From Nonomuraea typhae (GTDB taxonomy: Bacteria; Actinomycetota; Actinomycetes; Streptosporangiales; Streptosporangiaceae): 64,000 nucleotides of DNA. The notes beneath the pieces were generated by a model, which searched no databases, was not told where the DNA came from, and worked only from the letters and a program-made list of their open reading frames with translations. This document shows, in pieces, positions 1 to 8,080 of the stretch. Position 1 is the stretch's first letter. Each line of letters begins with the position of its first letter. The stretch is taken from NCBI RefSeq assembly GCF_009760925.1, contig NZ_VRLV01000023.1, positions 62,001 through 126,000 of the forward strand, read 5' to 3'. A program made the position numbers and the translations under genes.

Positions 1-106
1 TTTCCTGCTCGCGTCGGGACTGGTGCCGCGATAGATCACAGAACGCCGGAGGCCGTTTCCGGTCGTCATCTATACGAGACGGGTCGCACACTGGGAGGGC
101 GGGCAA

Positions 107-967
107 ATGTCGGAAAGGCTCCACATTTCGAGGTGGATCAAGCGAAAAACCTCTACTTATCTCGCGATCACGATGCTACTCCCCCTGGGTTCCGGGCTCG
201 CCGCCCCACAGGTTCGCGCTCAATCCGCCTCCGCTCCCTGGTATTACCGGTGGTCGGGTCTGGTCTTTCATGAGCTTCGAGATTCGTCCGACCCGGACCG
301 GAGATCGACGACGTTCTATTCCGTCGAGGCGAATATCAAGATTCCCTGCCTGCCGGACGACGCGCCACCGGGAATCTACTATGCCTGGGTAGGTCTCGGC
401 GGCATCAATTCCGGGCGCATCATCCGGGCCGGCCTGTCGGCGGAAATGCGGCGGGACGGGAACACCCGGATCAAGACCTACCGTCTGTGGGCCGAATCCA
501 GGGCCGTCCGCTGGTCCTGGAACCCGCCGGCCGCATCGCTGCCGCCGGCGCCGGGCTTCACCCGGGAGCTCGGCGATCAACTGTGCGGTGACGATCCGGG
601 CGTCTTCGTGAAAGTGGACGCCGACGGTTTCCTGAGTTGGGGCGGCGCCAGTCGCCGCAGAATAGGGCCGTCCGTCGCCCATGGCCGGATGCAGACCGCC
701 GAATACATCGTCCAGGCGGCACCTGGTTTCGAAGGGCGCAGAACCGTCGCGTCCGGAAGAATCACCTTCGCCAATGCCTTCATGAACGCGCGCCGGAACA
801 CCGGCCACCTCGCCATCGGCAGAACGGGCTTCAACGCGGGCGGGACCGCATGCACCGACGAGATATGCAAGAGGCTGGTACCCGACGGTGGCCGCCTGCT
901 GGGGCCGCCGGTCAGGGATGAGCAGGGGCAACTGCACGAATCGAGTTTCTCGGTGGTTATTCCGTAG
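107..967 (+). CDS. Secreted G1-peptidase-like (eqolisin-fold) protein
   Basis: Predicted 286-residue exported protein. An ATG follows a GGGAGGG ribosome-binding site. The N-terminus has basic residues (WIKRK) and then a hydrophobic stretch ending near APQVRAQSASA, a plausible signal peptide. The body resembles the glutamic peptidase (G1) beta-sandwich: YYAWVGLGG around residue 90, a later GD/V.V.A strand pair, AEYIV near residue 206 (eqolisins have AEWIV with the catalytic Glu) and ITFANA. The segment where eqolisins carry the catalytic Gln (about ILQTG) reads IIRAG here, so the Gln seems missing. It may be an inactive or altered relative. The family call is from motif memory only. It lies upstream of the Cys-rich lipoprotein on the same strand. 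Confidence 0.55.
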   Translation: MSERLHISRWIKRKTSTYLAITMLLPLGSGLAAPQVRAQSASAPWYYRWSGLVFHELRDSSDPDRRSTTFYSVEANIKIPCLPDDAPPGIYYAWVGLGGINSGRIIRAGLSAEMRRDGNTRIKTYRLWAESRAVRWSWNPPAASLPPAPGFTRELGDQLCGDDPGVFVKVDADGFLSWGGASRRRIGPSVAHGRMQTAEYIVQAAPGFEGRRTVASGRITFANAFMNARRNTGHLAIGRTGFNAGGTACTDEICKRLVPDGGRLLGPPVRDEQGQLHESSFSVVIP

Positions 968-1055
968 TCCGCACGCCGGCCGTACCGCTCGGGAACGCCC
1001 GCCCGCGCGTCAAATCCAGGCCACTTCGTCACCGTCATTTCGGAGCTGGTACGCA

Positions 1056-1835
1056 ATGAGGCGACGCCAACTGCTGGGAATGCTCGCCGGATGCGCGACC
1101 CTACTCGTCACGGGCTGCTCCCCGGCGGCCCGGGCGGCGGCCTCGAAGTATCTGAAAGGAACAGTAAGAGGGACCGGCGAGGTGATAGCCGACCTGGGGA
1201 AGGAACTGGCGAAAGACGCGGCGATCGAGGCCCTCGAGTCCGGCCTGAAATCAGCGCCGAACACCCAAGATATCTGTCCCTACGACTTCCCTCTCGATTG
1301 CGGCGGATACTGCTGCCCGCCGGGAACCGTATGCTGCGGTGGGCGATACTGCGGAATCGCGTGCGGAAAAGGGCGATGCTGCCCGCGGGAAAGCAGATGT
1401 TGCGGCGGCCGTTGCTGCGGCATCGATGGAGTTTGCTGCAACGGCCGCTGCTGTCCCGCCGGGAGTTCGTGTTGCGGCAAGAGCTGCTGTCCCTACCAGA
1501 TCGGCAGCACCTGTTGTAAGGGCGGCGGCTGCTGTCCCCGCGGGGAAACCTGTTGCGGCAGGGGATGCTGTCCCAGCGGCCAAATCTGCTGCCGCGGCGG
1601 TTGCTGCCCCTCCATCGCCATGTGTTGCGGCGGGCGCTGTTGCGAAGGGGTCTGCTGCCGGGGCGTCTGCTGCGCTGCGGGGAGTTCGTGCTGCGGCTCC
1701 AGTTGCTGCTCCTACGGACGGAACGCCACCTGTTGCAAGGGCGGCGGCTGCTGCCCACCGGGGAGAGCGTGCTGCGCGGGCGGCTGCTGCCCGCCCGGAA
1801 CCGTCTGCTGTGGCACCCGATGCTGCTACACCTGA
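1056..1835 (+). CDS. Cys-rich granulin-like lipoprotein
   Basis: 259-residue protein. The start is the ATG at 1056, because it gives a twin-arginine-like leader (MRRRQLLG) followed by a lipobox (LVTGC, lipid Cys21). After a short helical, low-Cys linker, the C-terminal ~185 residues contain 58 cysteines besides Cys21, including 27 CC pairs, in repeats such as CCGGRCC and CCKGGGCCP. Two blocks (GSSCCGKSCC...TCCKGGGCC and GSSCCGSSCC...TCCKGGGCC) look like an internal duplication. The spacing recalls granulin/knottin-type disulfide ladders. It is inferred to be exported, lipid-anchored and heavily disulfide bonded. The next gene encodes a likely dedicated thiol-disulfide system 30 bp downstream. 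Function unknown. Confidence 0.8.
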   Translation: MRRRQLLGMLAGCATLLVTGCSPAARAAASKYLKGTVRGTGEVIADLGKELAKDAAIEALESGLKSAPNTQDICPYDFPLDCGGYCCPPGTVCCGGRYCGIACGKGRCCPRESRCCGGRCCGIDGVCCNGRCCPAGSSCCGKSCCPYQIGSTCCKGGGCCPRGETCCGRGCCPSGQICCRGGCCPSIAMCCGGRCCEGVCCRGVCCAAGSSCCGSSCCSYGRNATCCKGGGCCPPGRACCAGGCCPPGTVCCGTRCCYT

Positions 1836-1865
1836 CCGGTGCGTTCGAGATGAGGAGAAGCGGCT

Positions 1866-3404
1866 GTGGACATCATCCTTTTGCTTGATCGTCTGCTACT
1901 GGCCACGATCTTCGCCTGGTCGGGGCTGGCCAAGCTGGCCGATCGCCCCGGCACGCGCCGGGCGATGCTCGATTTCGGAACCCCCGCCGTTCTGGCCGCC
2001 CCGTCCGCCCTTCTCCTTCCGGTGATCGAGCTCGCCGTCGCCGGATCGCTCATTCCGGCGGCCTCGGCACGGGCGGGCGCGACCGCCGCGCTCACGCTGC
2101 TGGTGGTCTTCACCGTCGTGGTGGGCTACCACGTGGTCCGCGGGCATCCACTCAGCTGCCGATGCTTCGGGCAGTCCGCCTCCGCGCCCGTCGGCTGGCC
2201 GACGATCGCCAGGAATCTCACGCTTTCCGCCATGGCCGGGATCATCGTCGGCTTCGGCACACCCGGCGCGGGCGCCGACGTCTTCGCCTGGATGACGGCG
2301 GCCACCGTCGTCGATCGCGTCGAGCTGGGTACAGGCGGGCTCACCGCCGTACTCTTGGTGCTGGGCGGGGCGATTCTGCTGCGCCAGAACGCGCGTCTGC
2401 TCCGGCGCCTGCACGAGATCGAGGCAAGGCTCGGGACCGAAGGCGCGACGGCGGTGAACACACCGGCCGCGGCCGACTTCCGTATGCGCGCTCCGGCTCT
2501 TCGCCTTCCCGATCTGTCCGGCGACCAGGTCACCCTGGACGACCTCCTCGCCGCCGGCAGCCCCGTCCTGCTCGTCTTCTACGACCCTGAATGCGCGCCC
2601 TGCAACGCGCTCCTGCCGGAGGTCGGCCGCTGGCAGCGCGACCACGCGGATCAGCTGACGCTCGCGGTGATCAGCCGAGGCACACCGGAGGTCAACCGCG
2701 ACAAGGCCGACGAGCATGGAATCGTGCGCCTCCTGCTCCAGCGGGACCAGGAGGCGGCGGAGCCGTACCAGGTGCACGGAACGCCCTGCGCGGTCCTGAT
2801 CCGCGCCGATGGAATCATGCACGAGCCCCCCGCCTGCGGCGAGAAGCACATCCGGGAACTCGTGGCACGAGCAGCCGGCGCGGCGAGCGGCAGCTTCCTC
2901 CCGGTGACCGCCGACGGAAGCGGCGGCCACGCCCTGCCGATGGCGGACGCGCACACGGAACATCTCGCTCCCGAACCGTCAGCCGAACCCCGGGGGCTCC
3001 CGATCGGTGATCCCGCCCCCGCGTTCGCCCTGCCCGATCTCAACGGGCGATCCGTCGACCTCGCCGATCTTCATGGGCGATCGGCACTCCTTCTGTTCTG
3101 GAACCCGGCCTGCGGCTTCTGCGAGCAGATGCTTCCCGATCTCCGAGCCTGGGAGGCGAACGGGGCGCAGGAAGGGCCGGCTCTGGTCGTCATCTCCACG
3201 GGAACCGTCGAGGAGAACCGGGCCATGGGACTGTCCTCGGCCATCCTCCACGATGAGACCTTCGCCGTGGGGCCGCTGTTCGGAGCTCAGGGCACGCCGA
3301 TGGCCGTCGTGGTGGACGCGGAGGGCCGCATCGCCTCCGAGGCCGTGGCAGGAGCGCCTGGCGTCCTGACGTTGCTGACTCGCCCGAACCCGGTCCCGGC
3401 CTGA
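1866..3404 (+). CDS. MauE-type membrane protein fused to two thioredoxin-like domains
   Basis: 512 residues, GTG start with a GAGGAGA site 5-10 nt upstream. Residues 1-175 form several membrane segments of the MauE/DoxX-like methylamine-utilisation family, with a conserved redox pair in SCRCFG (Cys98, Cys100). Two TlpA/AhpC-TSA-type thioredoxin folds follow: the first at about 205-340 has CAPC (Cys243/246) and a cis-Pro loop HGTPC, the second at about 377-505 has CGFC (Cys416/419) and QGTPM. MauE-type proteins support disulfide formation or electron relay in exported proteins. With its position directly after a 59-Cys lipoprotein, this suggests an oxidase/isomerase pair serving that substrate. 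Domain calls are strong; the partnership is inference. Confidence 0.85.
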   Translation: MDIILLLDRLLLATIFAWSGLAKLADRPGTRRAMLDFGTPAVLAAPSALLLPVIELAVAGSLIPAASARAGATAALTLLVVFTVVVGYHVVRGHPLSCRCFGQSASAPVGWPTIARNLTLSAMAGIIVGFGTPGAGADVFAWMTAATVVDRVELGTGGLTAVLLVLGGAILLRQNARLLRRLHEIEARLGTEGATAVNTPAAADFRMRAPALRLPDLSGDQVTLDDLLAAGSPVLLVFYDPECAPCNALLPEVGRWQRDHADQLTLAVISRGTPEVNRDKADEHGIVRLLLQRDQEAAEPYQVHGTPCAVLIRADGIMHEPPACGEKHIRELVARAAGAASGSFLPVTADGSGGHALPMADAHTEHLAPEPSAEPRGLPIGDPAPAFALPDLNGRSVDLADLHGRSALLLFWNPACGFCEQMLPDLRAWEANGAQEGPALVVISTGTVEENRAMGLSSAILHDETFAVGPLFGAQGTPMAVVVDAEGRIASEAVAGAPGVLTLLTRPNPVPA

Positions 3405-3438
3405 GGAGGGCGACCTCGCGGGAAGCAGGGGCGGGTGG

Positions 3439-4531
3439 TCAGAGGAAGAGTTCGGCGATGGCTTCGGGATCCAGGACGCGGGGGGCGAACCGGTACGCCG
3501 GTGGTTCCAGGTCCAGCAGGTGACGGACGAGGTAGTCGAACTGCTTCCTGAACGTGTAGTGCTCGTATCCGATGTACATGTGCTCGGCGCCGGTGACGAT
3601 CTGCAGGTCGAAGTCCTTGCCGTGGGCGATGAGCCGGTCGGCGAAGCGCAGCGTCTGCTCCATCAGGGCCCTGGGGTCGTAGCCGCCGGCGATGAACAGC
3701 AGCTTGCCCTGGAGCTTGTGGGCGGAGCGGGCGTTGGACGCCAGCGCGTAGTCCACCTCGCCCACCGGCCCGTCGATCATCTCCACACAGCCCTGCAGGT
3801 GCGCGTAGTCCACCTCGCCCACCGGCCCGTCGATCATCTCCACACAGCCCTGCAGGTAGGTCGGGTTGTCGTGGTTGCCGGTACGTGAGACGCCGACCTT
3901 GTAGAACTCGGGGTGGTCGGAGGTGACCTGGTTGCGAAGCTCCCCGGTCTTGGTGTCGTACAGGCACAGGTGGCCCCAGCCATCGCGCTGGGAGTACCAC
4001 AGCACCTCCGCCCCGCCGTTGACGACCTTGACGATGGGGAAGGAGTTGATCCGGACCTGGGTGGGATCCACCCGGGTGGGGCCACTCTCGCTCACCAGCG
4101 TCGTCACCTCGCCGGTGACCGGATCCATCCGACGCAGGCTCAGGGTGCGCAGGTCACGGGGCTGGCTCAGGTAGTAGACGGCCGAGCTGTCGTCGGCCCA
4201 CCACAACCAGCGCAGTGTCATCGGCGACAGGACCGTCATCAGCTCCGGCTCGGCCTGCGCCTTGACCACCTGGCCGCCTGGTCGGTGCGGTGGGTCAGCA
4301 CCTTGGCGCCGTCGGGCGACCATGCGGCGCAGATCGGGTATTCGTTCAGCCCGACCGTCTTCAGCAGGGTGTCGTAGTGGTAGTAGTCCAGGCCCACGCC
4401 GTACTCGCGGTCGGCTTCACCGCCGGCAGCGCCCTGACGTCCTTGAGCGCGGCCAGCGATCGCAACGAAGCGATACGCCACCCACCAGGGACGAGCACAC
4501 TCAGCTGACTGCCTTCCTGGACTAGGCTCAT
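3439..4531 (-). pseudogene. Decayed S9 (prolyl oligopeptidase/DPP IV-type) peptidase
   Basis: Reading right to left, fragments of one S9-family peptidase occur in different frames: a start-like piece from 4531, then YGVGLDYYHYDTLLKTVG and YPICAAWSPDGAKVLTHR in a second frame, and from about 4270 a third frame with propeller motifs (SFPIVKVVNGG, LWYSQRDGWGHLCLYD). The chain then jumps from a propeller blade directly to EFYKVGVSRTGNHDNPTY and the C-terminal hydrolase end (KLLFIAGGYDP, GAEHMY). The segment that should carry the nucleophile Ser (G-x-S-x-G) is absent, implying a deletion near 3915. A 57-bp tandem duplication also lies inside. At least two frameshifts plus the deletion make a functional product unlikely. 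Confidence 0.85.
3744..3857. repeat. Perfect 57-bp tandem duplication
   Basis: Positions 3744-3800 and 3801-3857 are identical and adjacent. The unit is 19 codons, so the duplication is in frame; in the decayed S9 peptidase it repeats the peptide LQGCVEMIDGPVGEVDYA. With only two identical copies it is probably a recent slippage or unequal exchange product in a gene no longer under selection. Confidence 0.95.
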
Positions 4532-4612
4532 GACACGGCACCTCGCCCGCATCGTCTGCAACGCCCTCCAGCCCGACATGCTCGCGGCAGCGGCTCGACA
4601 TAGGAGCGACAC

Positions 4613-7336
4613 ATGTCACTGGTGGGCAGGGAGATCGAGCAAGCACGGATTCAACGCCTGCTGACCGATGCACGCGACGACCGCAGCGGCGTCCTGGGCC
4701 TGCGGGGCGCGGCGGGCATCGGGAAATCGGTTCTCCTCGACCACGCCGTGTCGATAGCCGAAGAGGCCGACATGCACGTGGTCCGCGGGGCAGGGGTCGA
4801 GTCCGACTCCGAGCTCGCGTACGGCGGCCTGCACCAGCTCTTGTTCCCTCACTTGGACAGGTTGGACGCCCTCCCCGCTCCCCAGGCCAGGGCACTGCGT
4901 TGCGCCTTCGGCCTGTCCGAGGGAGACGAAGCCAACCGGTTCCTGATCTCCGCCGGCACCCTGTCGTTGCTCGCCGATCTGGCCGAGAAGGCCCCGCTGC
5001 TGTGCGTGGTCGATGACCTGCAGTGGCTCGACCAGGGTTCGGTGGAGGCGCTGCTGTTCGCGGCCCGCCGCTTCGTGGCCGATCCGATCGCGGTGCTGTT
5101 CGCGGTGCGCGAGACGTCGATGCCGTTCGACATCGCGGGTGTCGAGGTCGTGGATCTGCCCGGCCTCGCCGCGCCCGATGCCGCCCGGCTGCTCGACGAG
5201 CACGCACCGGAACTCATCGAACCGGTGCGGGCCAGGGTCCTCGCAGAGTCCGGCGGCAATCCCCTGGCGATCATCGAGCTCGGGTCGTCACGGCTCGCGG
5301 CAGAGGATGCGGACGAGTCCGACCCCGCCGAGCAGGTCGGCCCGCTGCCGGTGACCCGCCGCGTGCAGGAGGCGTTCCGCCACCAGATCGTGGGGCTTCC
5401 CGACCCCGCCCAACGCGCGCTTCTGGTGGCGGCCGCCGACCTGGCGGCGCCTCTGGCGACGATCCTGCACGTGATCGAATCCCTCGGTGGCACCGCCGGC
5501 GACCTGGCGCCCGCCGAACGCGACCGGCTGGTCTGGGTCGGCAGCCGGGTCACGTTCCGCCACCCTTTGGTACGGGCGGCGGCCTACCAGGACGCGCCGC
5601 TGCACCGGCGGATCGAGGTACATCGCGCGTACGCCGAGGCGCTGCGCGCGGACGCCGATGCCGACCGCCGGGCCTGGCACCTCGCTGCCGCCACCATCAC
5701 TCCCGACGAAGCTGTGGCCGCCGAACTGGAAGGCGCGGCGGAGCGGGCCTGGCATCGAGGCGGCGCGATGGCGGTGTCCGCCGCCTACGACCGCGCCGGT
5801 CGGCTCAGTGCCGACCGGGAGCTGAAGGCCCGCCGCATCGCCCGGGCCAGCCAGGCCGCGTTCGATGCCGGCAAGGCCGACCGCGCCGCCCGACTGGCGG
5901 CCGAAGCGCTCTCGCTCACCACCGACCCCGGCGTCCGGGCCGCGGCCATCTATACCCGTGGCGCCGTGGAGTACGAACGCACCTCGCCGCGAGCCGATGC
6001 GGAGCTGACGCTCGAAGCCGCCGCGCTGGTGCGCGACACCGATCCGGAGCACGCCGCGCTCACCCTGTACGAGGCCGCGCACGCCGCCCGGCACGGAGCG
6101 GCGCACGACCTCCTGCAGCGTACGGCGGAGCTGATGCGCGGGTTCACCCCGCCGGAGCACTGGGCACTCGTCGTCGCCGCCCTTCTCGGGTGGGCGGAGC
6201 TCTTCGCCGGACGCCCGGAGCTGGCCGTCGGCCCGATGCGCGCTCTCCACACCGCCATCCGCGGCGGCGGAGACGACCTGACGCATCAGATCACGGCAGG
6301 GTTCGGCGGGCTCATGATCGCCGACGACGACGGCGTCGCCGCCGGGATCGAGGACATGCTGGCCGAGGTGCGGGCCAACGGGGCGCTGGGCTGGGTCCCG
6401 TACACCCTGAACGTGCTCGCGGTGGCGCGGCTGTTGCGCGGCGAGTTCGCCGACGCCCGCGCGTGTGTGGCGGAAGGCGTATCCGTGAGCGACGAGCTCG
6501 GGAACACGACCGAGAGCCTGGCACACCGGTCGGTGGAGGTGTGGTTGCACGCCGTGTCGGGTGACGAGGCACGCTGCCGAGCTCTTGCCGAGGAGGTGCT
6601 CCCGCGAGCCCGAGCCCGGCACCGGGTCAACGCCGAGATCGCGGCCTGGGGTCTCGGCATGCTCGACCTTTCCGCCCGGCGGTTCGGAGAGGCATGCGAC
6701 CGGCTCGAGCGGGTGTCCCGGGGACCCGCAAGCCGCGACCTCCTGGTCCGGGCGGTGCCGGACCTGGTGGAAGCGGCCGTGCGCGCCGGCATGCCGGATC
6801 GCGCCCACGAACCCCTGGCAACGTTCCGCCACTGGGCTGACTGCGTCGACCGCCCGGTCGCCACCGGCCTCGTCCTGCGCTGCCGGGCCTTGCTGGCCGA
6901 CGACGGCGACGCCGATGCGCTGTACGCCGGGGCGCTGCGACTCCACGAGCGGCACGGCGGCCCCTACGAGCACGCCCGTACCCAGCTGGTCTACGGCGAG
7001 TGGCTGCGCCGACGGCGCCGCCGTACCGAGGCCCGCGCCCATCTCTCGGCGGCGGTGTCCGCGTTCGAGCGCCTCGGCGCGCGGCTCTGGGCCGAACGTG
7101 CGCGCGGTGAGCTCGCCGCCTTCGGCGAGCGGGGCGACGAGCCTCAGCGCAGCGGCCCGCTCACCCTGCTGACCCCGCAGGAACTGCAGGTCGTACGGCT
7201 GGCCGCCACCGGCCACACGAACAAGGAGATCGCCGCACAGCTGTTCCTCAGCCCACGGACCGTCGGCCACCACCTCTACAAGGCGTATCCGAAACTCGGC
7301 GTCACCGGTCGCGCCGAGCTGACTGACCTCGTCTAA
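4613..7336 (+). CDS. LAL-type LuxR family transcriptional regulator (AAA ATPase)
   Basis: 907 residues, ATG preceded by AGGAG. The N-terminal ATPase module has Walker A GAAGIGKS (residues 32-39) and Walker B LLCVVDDLQWLD near 125-140, followed by a long helical/TPR-like middle. The last ~65 residues are a LuxR-type helix-turn-helix (LTPQELQVVRLAATGHTNKEI, LSPRTVGHHLYKAYPKLGV). LAL proteins are large ATP-dependent activators; many control secondary metabolism or sugar use. The product is full-length for the family. It is transcribed away from the decayed S9 peptidase and has no clear target next to it. Confidence 0.93.
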   Translation: MSLVGREIEQARIQRLLTDARDDRSGVLGLRGAAGIGKSVLLDHAVSIAEEADMHVVRGAGVESDSELAYGGLHQLLFPHLDRLDALPAPQARALRCAFGLSEGDEANRFLISAGTLSLLADLAEKAPLLCVVDDLQWLDQGSVEALLFAARRFVADPIAVLFAVRETSMPFDIAGVEVVDLPGLAAPDAARLLDEHAPELIEPVRARVLAESGGNPLAIIELGSSRLAAEDADESDPAEQVGPLPVTRRVQEAFRHQIVGLPDPAQRALLVAAADLAAPLATILHVIESLGGTAGDLAPAERDRLVWVGSRVTFRHPLVRAAAYQDAPLHRRIEVHRAYAEALRADADADRRAWHLAAATITPDEAVAAELEGAAERAWHRGGAMAVSAAYDRAGRLSADRELKARRIARASQAAFDAGKADRAARLAAEALSLTTDPGVRAAAIYTRGAVEYERTSPRADAELTLEAAALVRDTDPEHAALTLYEAAHAARHGAAHDLLQRTAELMRGFTPPEHWALVVAALLGWAELFAGRPELAVGPMRALHTAIRGGGDDLTHQITAGFGGLMIADDDGVAAGIEDMLAEVRANGALGWVPYTLNVLAVARLLRGEFADARACVAEGVSVSDELGNTTESLAHRSVEVWLHAVSGDEARCRALAEEVLPRARARHRVNAEIAAWGLGMLDLSARRFGEACDRLERVSRGPASRDLLVRAVPDLVEAAVRAGMPDRAHEPLATFRHWADCVDRPVATGLVLRCRALLADDGDADALYAGALRLHERHGGPYEHARTQLVYGEWLRRRRRRTEARAHLSAAVSAFERLGARLWAERARGELAAFGERGDEPQRSGPLTLLTPQELQVVRLAATGHTNKEIAAQLFLSPRTVGHHLYKAYPKLGVTGRAELTDLV

Positions 7337-7511
7337 TTAGCCCGCCGATGACCGTCATCCGCTGGAGGTTGCCGGCAAAGATCCCGAGTCCGACCTAGGT
7401 AATGTCAGTCATCGGTTCCCGGACACCGGTCACGATGACCGATGCGTCACGGGGGAGCTCCCGCCTAGCGTTCAGACAGCGGCCATTGGCCACAACGACG
7501 AGGAGACGACA

Positions 7512-7880
7512 ATGACGAAGTACTTTCTGAGCCTCCCCCACGACTCCGCCGAGGAGCCGACGATGGAGAGCATGGACCCCGCGGAGCTGCAGCAGGTGAT
7601 AGCCGCGGTCGGTGCGTTCAACACCGCCCTTCAGGAGGCGGGCGCGTTCGTGTCCGCCGGGGGCCTGCAGCCGCCGTCGAACGCGACCACGGTGGATTAC
7701 ACCGGTGACAGCCCCGTACTCACACCGGGCCCCTTCGTCGAGGCCGAGGAGTACCTCGGCGGCTTCTGGATCATCGAGGCCGAAAACGACGACGTCGCGA
7801 TCGAATGGACCAAGCAGGCCTCGCGAGCGCTGCGAAGCAAGATCGAGGTGCGTGCCCTCCAGGAGGGACCCGCCGCCTGA
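7512..7880 (+). CDS. YCII-related (DGPF-type) protein
   Basis: 122 residues, ATG with a GAGGAG site. It starts MTKYFLSLPHD and carries the YCII/DGPF signature (LTPGPFVEAEEYLGGFWIIEA, about residues 75-95), where most homologues read DGPFxExKE. YCII proteins are small ferredoxin-like alpha/beta dimers, often near ECF sigma factors or in biosynthetic clusters; the biochemical role is mostly unknown. Here no sigma factor is adjacent. It stands alone between the LAL regulator and the SGNH hydrolase; the flanking 175 and 200 bp show no gene. Confidence 0.85.
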   Translation: MTKYFLSLPHDSAEEPTMESMDPAELQQVIAAVGAFNTALQEAGAFVSAGGLQPPSNATTVDYTGDSPVLTPGPFVEAEEYLGGFWIIEAENDDVAIEWTKQASRALRSKIEVRALQEGPAA

Positions 7881-8080
7881 CGACGGTCCGGCCCGGCGAC
7901 ACGTCAATGGCCCGAAGGCCGATGCCACGGGAACCGTGCCCGCCGAGCCGCTTACTCCGCGTCCGCGGCCATTCGAGCACTGATCCTGGGTACCGCGGCC
8001 GCCTCCTCCCTGATCCGCGCCGTCGGCGCAGGTACGGCCGGCCGCCACGGTGTCCGTCATGGTCACGACACCGCTGGTCC

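Follow-up and report, generated by a model that had tools for sequence, protein, structure and literature searches.

The window analysed here, a stretch of 64,000 nucleotides from Nonomuraea typhae (contig NZ_VRLV01000023.1, positions 62,001 to 126,000), carries two adjacent genes on the forward strand, P0001 (1056–1835) and P0002 (1866–3404), so that a Cys-rich protein with an export signal is encoded directly beside a MauE-thioredoxin gene, with a gap of 30 bp (1836–1865) between them. P0001, the presumed folding substrate, is preceded by GGAG (1042–1045), a likely ribosome-binding site 10 bp 5' of the ATG, and comprises 259 residues. By eye, it begins with a signal peptide (1056–1118; MRRRQLLGMLAGCATLLVTGC), which contains RRRQLL, compatible with a twin-arginine translocation (Tat) signal, and ends in the lipobox LVTGC at residues 17–21, by which P0001 is classed as a lipoprotein with predicted lipidation. 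The translation holds 60 Cys, 58 of them beyond the lipobox Cys21, and 27 CC pairs, and the Cys array (1275–1832) consists mostly of a CC-x5-CC-x3 repeat with a period of 12; the CC-to-CC spacing is 5 in 11 and 7 in 10 of 26 cases, mostly alternating, which makes the array a regular one. P0001 gave no Pfam match at E ≤ 10 (PF10518 was likewise not matched) and no NCBIfam match at E ≤ 1. An assignment to granulin or to some other established Cys-rich family was considered and set aside, as the PDB matches reached no better than E 0.75–0.82; granulin (PDB 2jyt) has a CC-rich repeat as P0001 does, and its match, at E 0.82, is not significant.

P0002, the presumed oxidoreductase of the pair, starts with GTG 8 bp after a likely ribosome-binding site, AGGAG (1853–1857), and encodes a membrane protein of 512 residues. 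Its MauE membrane domain (1872–2246, residues 3–127) scores 88.7 bits against PF07291, above the curated cut-off of 27, and includes a Cys98-x-Cys100 motif (2157–2165), which together place P0002 in the MauE family. The first thioredoxin domain (approximately 2490–2873) carries CAPC (2592–2603, residues 243–246) and is MauD-like, its best NCBIfam match being MauD TIGR02661 (residues 166–324) at 89.4 bits, below the equivalog cut-off of 188.6. The second (approximately 2997–3380) is AhpC-TSA/ResA-like, with CGFC (3111–3122, residues 416–419) and PF00578 at residues 380–490. Across a 36-row alignment of the P0002 family, C98, C100, C243 and C246 are invariant, and C416 and C419 are present in at least 90% of the rows. 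The sequence-only reading of this DNA had described just such a lipidated-type protein with 58 C-terminal Cys, 27 as CC pairs, followed 30 bp downstream by a MauE protein (Cys98/Cys100) with two thioredoxin domains (CAPC, CGFC), and both descriptions are borne out by the translation and by the domain matches.

MauA is a disulfide-bonded subunit of methylamine dehydrogenase, encoded beside MauE and MauD. The mau operon of Paracoccus denitrificans resembles the window pair in bringing together MauE (PF07291), a MauD-like thioredoxin and a Cys-rich exported substrate, and Paracoccus MauE has a C-x-C motif, as does P0002. The best reading of P0002, in contrast to the mau system, is a single protein in which MauE and a MauD-like domain are joined and a second thioredoxin domain has been added. 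P0001 in turn differs from MauA in having a lipobox, no FDxL leader and 58 rather than 12 Cys, and Paracoccus MauA matches PF02975 and TIGR02659, whereas P0001 matches neither. With the comparative evidence set out below, P0001 and P0002 are probably a lipoprotein substrate and its dedicated oxidative-folding enzyme (a probability of about three in four, judged from sequence comparison), and the pair apparently belongs to a widespread and so far undescribed generalisation of MauA/MauE/MauD.

Relatives of P0002 were collected from a genome contig collection with a four-sequence alignment as query, and the best 80 of 90 confirmed loci were kept, from Chloroflexi, Acidobacteria, Actinobacteria, Gemmatimonadetes, Nitrospira, Alpha- and Deltaproteobacteria and one Thermaerobacter. 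Three loci are without a called gene, so that the tallies use 77, and two contigs are present twice (L087 repeats L047, and L147 repeats L061). A Cys-rich or leader-bearing protein adjoins or is fused to the P0002 relative in 34 of the 77, among which some members are weak: the partner lies on the opposite strand in L081, L095 and L125, has just 5 Cys in L126, has 10–20 Cys at less than 5% in L121, L125 and L134, is a broken frame in L086, and is a short open reading frame (ORF) in L098, where the leader-bearing protein is 3.4 kb off. Another 15 of the 77 lack such a neighbour and have shortened flanks. Since gene calling missed Cys-rich genes in GC-rich loci, both this tally and the distances were counted on mechanical ORFs, chance ORFs included; for the distances an ORF needed 9 or more Cys and a Cys content of at least 6.5%, thresholds fixed after the first loci had been inspected. 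Within the first kilobase on the same strand, 14 of 74 upstream and 10 of 66 downstream flanks hold such an ORF (24/140), versus 7 of 505 kilobase bins at 1–6 kb (Fisher p 1.5e-11); on the opposite strand the first kilobase has them in 5 of 74 upstream and 3 of 66 downstream flanks. A Rubrobacter contig shows the gene order of the window, with a near-full-length P0002 relative (46–49% identity) and directly upstream a Cys-rich frame, which has an internal stop and was left out of the parity count given below.

In addition to neighbours, fusions have been found. Six records show a 14-Cys domain and an RR signal fused to MauE plus a single thioredoxin domain, in Streptomyces (L039, L129, L132), Mycobacterium simulans (L135), L065 and L067, and a Caballeronia plasmid carries a double-thioredoxin protein gene followed by a separate 14-Cys homologue of the fusion domain. 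The fusions are like the window pair in combining MauE, thioredoxin and an exported Cys-rich domain, and unlike it in having one thioredoxin domain instead of two, a fused substrate and a Cys domain that by eye does not resemble P0001. Three of the six carry a lipobox and an RR signal without FDxL, as P0001 does; P0001 is a lipoprotein form of partner without the FDxL leader, unlike most partners and like these three fused forms. Moreover, the CC repeat of P0001 scores 434 against the 76-Cys partner of an acidobacterial locus (L084), compared with a mean of 313 when all Cys positions are fixed and the remaining residues shuffled (z 7.0), a likeness that goes beyond Cys placement, and z is 1.8 to 6.5 for five other partners under the same shuffling. 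The 14-Cys domain was also considered as a methylamine dehydrogenase light chain and rejected, its profile having no PDB match at E ≤ 10. As further variants, a PqqD domain (PF05402, 55.6 bits) is fused to a MauE-thioredoxin protein in L058 (6371–7888), and the Cys-rich partner of L133 begins with a PqqD-like stretch slightly below the cut-off.

The leader of MauA is also present on most partners in the group of P0002 relatives. Its consensus in many partners is xFDxLxxxLAxxxSRRxxLxxL, followed by a hydrophobic stretch, and a Tat-type FDxL...RR leader was matched on the partner in 25 of the 34 loci by models partly trained on these same leaders. Profiles were also built from two sets of 11 leaders, with every locus scored by a profile that lacked its own leader. 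Among 13,839 open segments, 36 matched at E ≤ 0.01, which amount to 34 distinct genes, since L052/L063 and L061/L147 are copies; L061 was not truly held out, because L147 is its copy. All leader-matched genes but two, in L086 (the broken frame) and L126, encode at least 6 Cys. Models built without MauA found Paracoccus denitrificans MauA (leader in the annotated record, MLGNFRFDDMVEKLSRRVAGQTSRR) at E 0.0016 among the 13,839 segments.

An 18-row leader model including MauA was then applied to eight whole genomes, chosen for holding the enzyme and scored for at most 150 candidates each, and gave 11 strong matches (E < 1e-6), 10 of which have a MauE match above the cut-off no more than 2 kb away. 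One of these ten, in Microvirga, has by eye the look of a true MauA with MauD and MauE, and the eleventh strong match, a 12-Cys protein of Dictyobacter, is encoded on a contig other than that of the enzyme gene. Five of the eight genomes contribute rows to the model; among the 6 strong matches outside it, 5 adjoin MauE. The other 31 listed matches (E 2.7e-4 to 0.1) start no earlier than model position 8, within the part that is typical of Tat signals in general, and inspection by eye placed none of the 31 near a MauE match above the cut-off. Among 396 genomes of the phylum, with at most 18 candidates scored per genome, the leader was matched at E ≤ 1e-5 in three (one of which, G953, gave a model row), and all three are among the 11 genomes, the own genome included, that have a P0002 match at E ≤ 1e-15, an overlap with a chance of 1.6e-5. 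One of the four leader matches in the phylum, L187, has 32 Cys.

The Cys numbers of the partners bear on what becomes of their thiols, as a protein with all its Cys in disulfides is required to have an even number. With leader and lipobox Cys removed, the number is even in 30 of 33 hand-picked partners; in a strict set of one protein per locus, from which seven doubtful proteins, all even, were dropped, it is even in 23 of 26 (p 4e-5), or in 21 of 26 with the leader kept (p 0.0012). Among the remaining ORFs of these loci that have 9 or more Cys, largely chance frames, 79 are even and 92 odd. Outside the 33 stand L086 (broken frame), L087 (internal stop), L096 (cut by the contig end), L061 (copy), L126 (5 Cys), L131, L139, the CBM14 neighbour of L032, L187, L182 and two 8-Cys leader proteins of L134. 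P0001 has 58 Cys past the lipobox, compared with 12 in MauA, 14 in each of the six fused domains and 18 in a protein of L037. Because most partners have an even number, full disulfide pairing is favoured.

The partner sequences are widely divergent, and 6 of 25 scanned partner-type proteins match Pfam above the cut-off, namely STIG1 (L093, L095, L109), disintegrin (L061), the group XII phospholipase A2 family PLA2G12 (L062), and the chitin-binding family CBM14, matched by the ORF after the enzyme gene in L032. The disintegrin match belongs to a bacterial ORF of 650 residues and 80 Cys (L061, 4323–6275) and has an E of 1.7e-34 over 7 stretches. As for export, a TatA gene directly follows the enzyme gene in L075, and in Ktedonobacter racemifer (L077, 4686–8761) TatA and TatC follow the MauE-thioredoxin-thioredoxin gene, with three small leader-bearing proteins of 6, 6 and 12 Cys encoded upstream of the enzyme. 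This adjacency supports a Tat route for the partners, which it suggests and does not prove.

Several observations weigh against taking P0001 and P0002 as substrate and dedicated folding enzyme. The start of P0001, MRRRQLLGMLAG, lacks the FDxL...RR leader, and in the own genome the leader model gave no match at P0001 and two weak partial matches elsewhere (best 150 of 564 candidates). A close relative of P0001 was found neither in the other 58 relatives searched nor in any of the other 35 same-genus genomes covered, none of 140 pattern matches in the genome contig collection was confirmed as one, and plasmids gave no match to P0001 or to window 1–3500. Among the other 393 genomes of the class, P0001 has weak matches in 6 (E 3e-4 to 7e-3), and a CC-rich protein-like ORF was present in only one, G542, of the four inspected; the 19.5 kb examined around its CC-rich ORFs hold no P0002 match, and a second route to CC-rich proteins of the P0001 kind may exist. 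The G542 ORFs lie in tandem (L046, 7503–10124) and have 46 and 50 Cys. Of the 77 loci, 28 have at least 1.5 kb on each side and show no Cys-rich or leader-bearing neighbour, and the enzyme therefore often acts with no substrate gene close by. Besides, the CBM14 neighbour in L032 has no visible signal peptide, the leader-bearing protein of L189, another of the four phylum leader matches, has a single Cys, and the lateness of the Cys-rich threshold mentioned above counts on the same side. The sequence-only reading had proposed a substrate and its dedicated folding machine and had asked for co-occurrence of the two genes in other genomes. In general form the proposal is supported by comparison, as P0002 relatives adjoin or are fused to diverse Cys-rich proteins beyond what distance by itself would produce, those examined being mostly even in Cys and with a MauA-like leader in 25 of the 34 loci; the exact pair, with a close relative of P0001, was not met again in the genomes searched.

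Among other explanations, P0002 might be a general-purpose extracytoplasmic thiol oxidoreductase, with many substrates or with P0001 next to it by accident, which would suit the 28 full-flank loci, the separate contigs of the Dictyobacter 12-Cys leader-bearing protein and its enzyme gene, and the nine MauE matches (eight above the cut-off) in the own genome of 11.4 Mb. The strong dependence of Cys-rich ORFs on distance, the fusions and the 30-bp gap in the window speak for a specific link, however, and P0002 matches at E ≤ 1e-12 occur in 3 of 341 family genomes, the own genome included, though single-domain matches at E ≤ 1e-3 turn up in almost every relative (57 of 59); we regard a general-purpose enzyme as unlikely. 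Slightly less likely still is that P0001 is a metallothionein-like lipoprotein, binding soft metals by free thiols that a TlpA/ResA-type P0002 keeps reduced outside the cell. TlpA/ResA-type thioredoxins are mostly reductants, and chains of that type, ResA-type structures included, are matched by both thioredoxin regions of P0002, although such thioredoxins stand alone whereas those of P0002 are joined to MauE; 58 Cys in fewer than 190 residues would also suit thiolate clusters. Thiolate clusters need no parity, however, while P0001 and 30 of 33 partners have an even Cys number; moreover, the Pfam folds matched by 6 of 25 partner-type proteins are disulfide-rich, and most partners carry the leader of MauA, which is a disulfide-bonded protein.

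Finally, the pair could lie in a cluster for ribosomally synthesised and post-translationally modified peptides (RiPPs), with P0001 as a large precursor to be cleaved into pieces once oxidised. PMC7794033 describes three Streptomyces families of candidate RiPPs in which mauE is accompanied by a precursor with 8 or more Cys, and the PqqD domain of L058, the sub-cut-off PqqD-like stretch before the Cys-rich part of the L133 partner and a MauE locus of the own genome that adjoins an MvdD-type ATP-grasp gene (L036) point the same way. P0001, however, is a protein of 259 residues with a lipobox, and no RiPP-type enzyme was recognised among the genes inspected in window 1–7336 or, by eye, upstream, which makes a RiPP precursor very improbable.

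If P0001 is the substrate of P0002, it would be exported, probably by the Tat route, and anchored by a lipid on Cys21 to the membrane's outer face, where its 58 remaining Cys would pair into about 29 disulfides. P0002, presumably translated from the same transcript, would serve as its dedicated thiol oxidoreductase, its two thioredoxin domains exchanging disulfides with the Cys array before it has folded, while MauE relays electrons via Cys98/Cys100, presumably to a membrane acceptor. An oxidising rather than a reducing direction is favoured because of the Cys parity, the disulfide folds among the partners and the parallel with MauA, in whose place P0001 would stand. The final role of P0001 might be, as a guess, that of a rigid surface protein, a coat or a binding protein.

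A broader proposal, which we advance tentatively and rate somewhat below even odds, is that of a portable, leader-addressed oxidative-folding system across bacteria, in which FDxL-RR would be an address tag directing Cys-rich proteins via Tat to a MauE-thioredoxin oxidase, the mau maturation genes would be a specialised offshoot, and the window pair would represent a lipoprotein branch that has dropped the tag. Such a system would let bacteria make eukaryote-like disulfide-rich proteins (STIG1, disintegrin-like, PLA2 and chitin-binding). On the cassette reading, MauE and MauD, known mainly as accessories of one enzyme, would gain a general role in the oxidative folding of very Cys-rich exported proteins. 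The cassette reading also predicts which bacterial genes belong together and supplies a testable leader motif, while simple two-gene pairs make the old question of MauE/MauD function directly testable, and MauE-thioredoxin cassettes could serve as tools for the production of disulfide-rich proteins in bacteria.

In the mauE passages of PMC7794033, which cite van der Palen 1997, MauE has been speculated to form the disulfides of the beta-subunit, and the exact function of MauD is described as unclear. The three Streptomyces families reported there were found with decRiPPter, each cluster having such a Cys-rich precursor, and the authors suggest a role for MauE in precursor modification. These clusters are like the window pair in encoding a MauE homologue near a Cys-rich (at least 8 Cys) protein; as those passages describe them, they differ in that candidate precursors stand in putative biosynthetic clusters, while the window has a lipoprotein and a MauE-thioredoxin-thioredoxin protein with no recognised modifying enzymes nearby. 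Beyond PMC7794033, a literature search that was partial and thin on subscription journals returned no description of MauE-thioredoxin cassettes with Cys-rich partners. The earlier statement that no system of this composition had been described accordingly needs to be narrowed, as MauA/MauE/MauD and the mauE RiPP clusters are precedents, and it is the cassette of a MauE-thioredoxin protein with a Cys-rich partner that is apparently undescribed.

Upstream of the pair, the gene at 107–967 (+) encodes 286 residues with, by eye, an N-terminal hydrophobic stretch, and has no recognisable family. It had been suggested as a G1-peptidase-like processing partner, a role that is rejected, since the gene has no Pfam or PDB chain match at E ≤ 10 and a whole-genome search with PF01828 (Peptidase_A4) gave no match there. 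No significant homologue was seen in the loci examined at that stage (best E 0.67), and among 150 family genomes the gene has, besides the own genome, one match (E 0.007) with three internal stops. No RNA families were found in window 1–8000, and a promoter and terminator scan of window 900–4600 found nothing.

Downstream, an incomplete gene at 3439–4323 (−) of the prolyl oligopeptidase/dipeptidyl peptidase IV type (partial PF00326 and PF00930) contains, by eye, a 57-bp tandem duplication at about 3744–3857, and a large LuxR-type regulator with an AAA_16 ATPase domain is encoded at 4613–7336 (+). Elsewhere in the own genome, another MauE locus (L037, 6126–7700; contig C15, about 145 kb) has a weakly thioredoxin-like gene below the Pfam cut-off and encodes the 18-Cys protein, which bears an RR leader and does not match the methylamine dehydrogenase light chain. 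In L036 (5205–8552; contig C16, about 132 kb, beyond the right end of the window), MauE and thioredoxin genes are accompanied by the MvdD-type ATP-grasp gene, a ClpP-like protease gene and a small 6-Cys ORF, which together have the look of a RiPP cluster.

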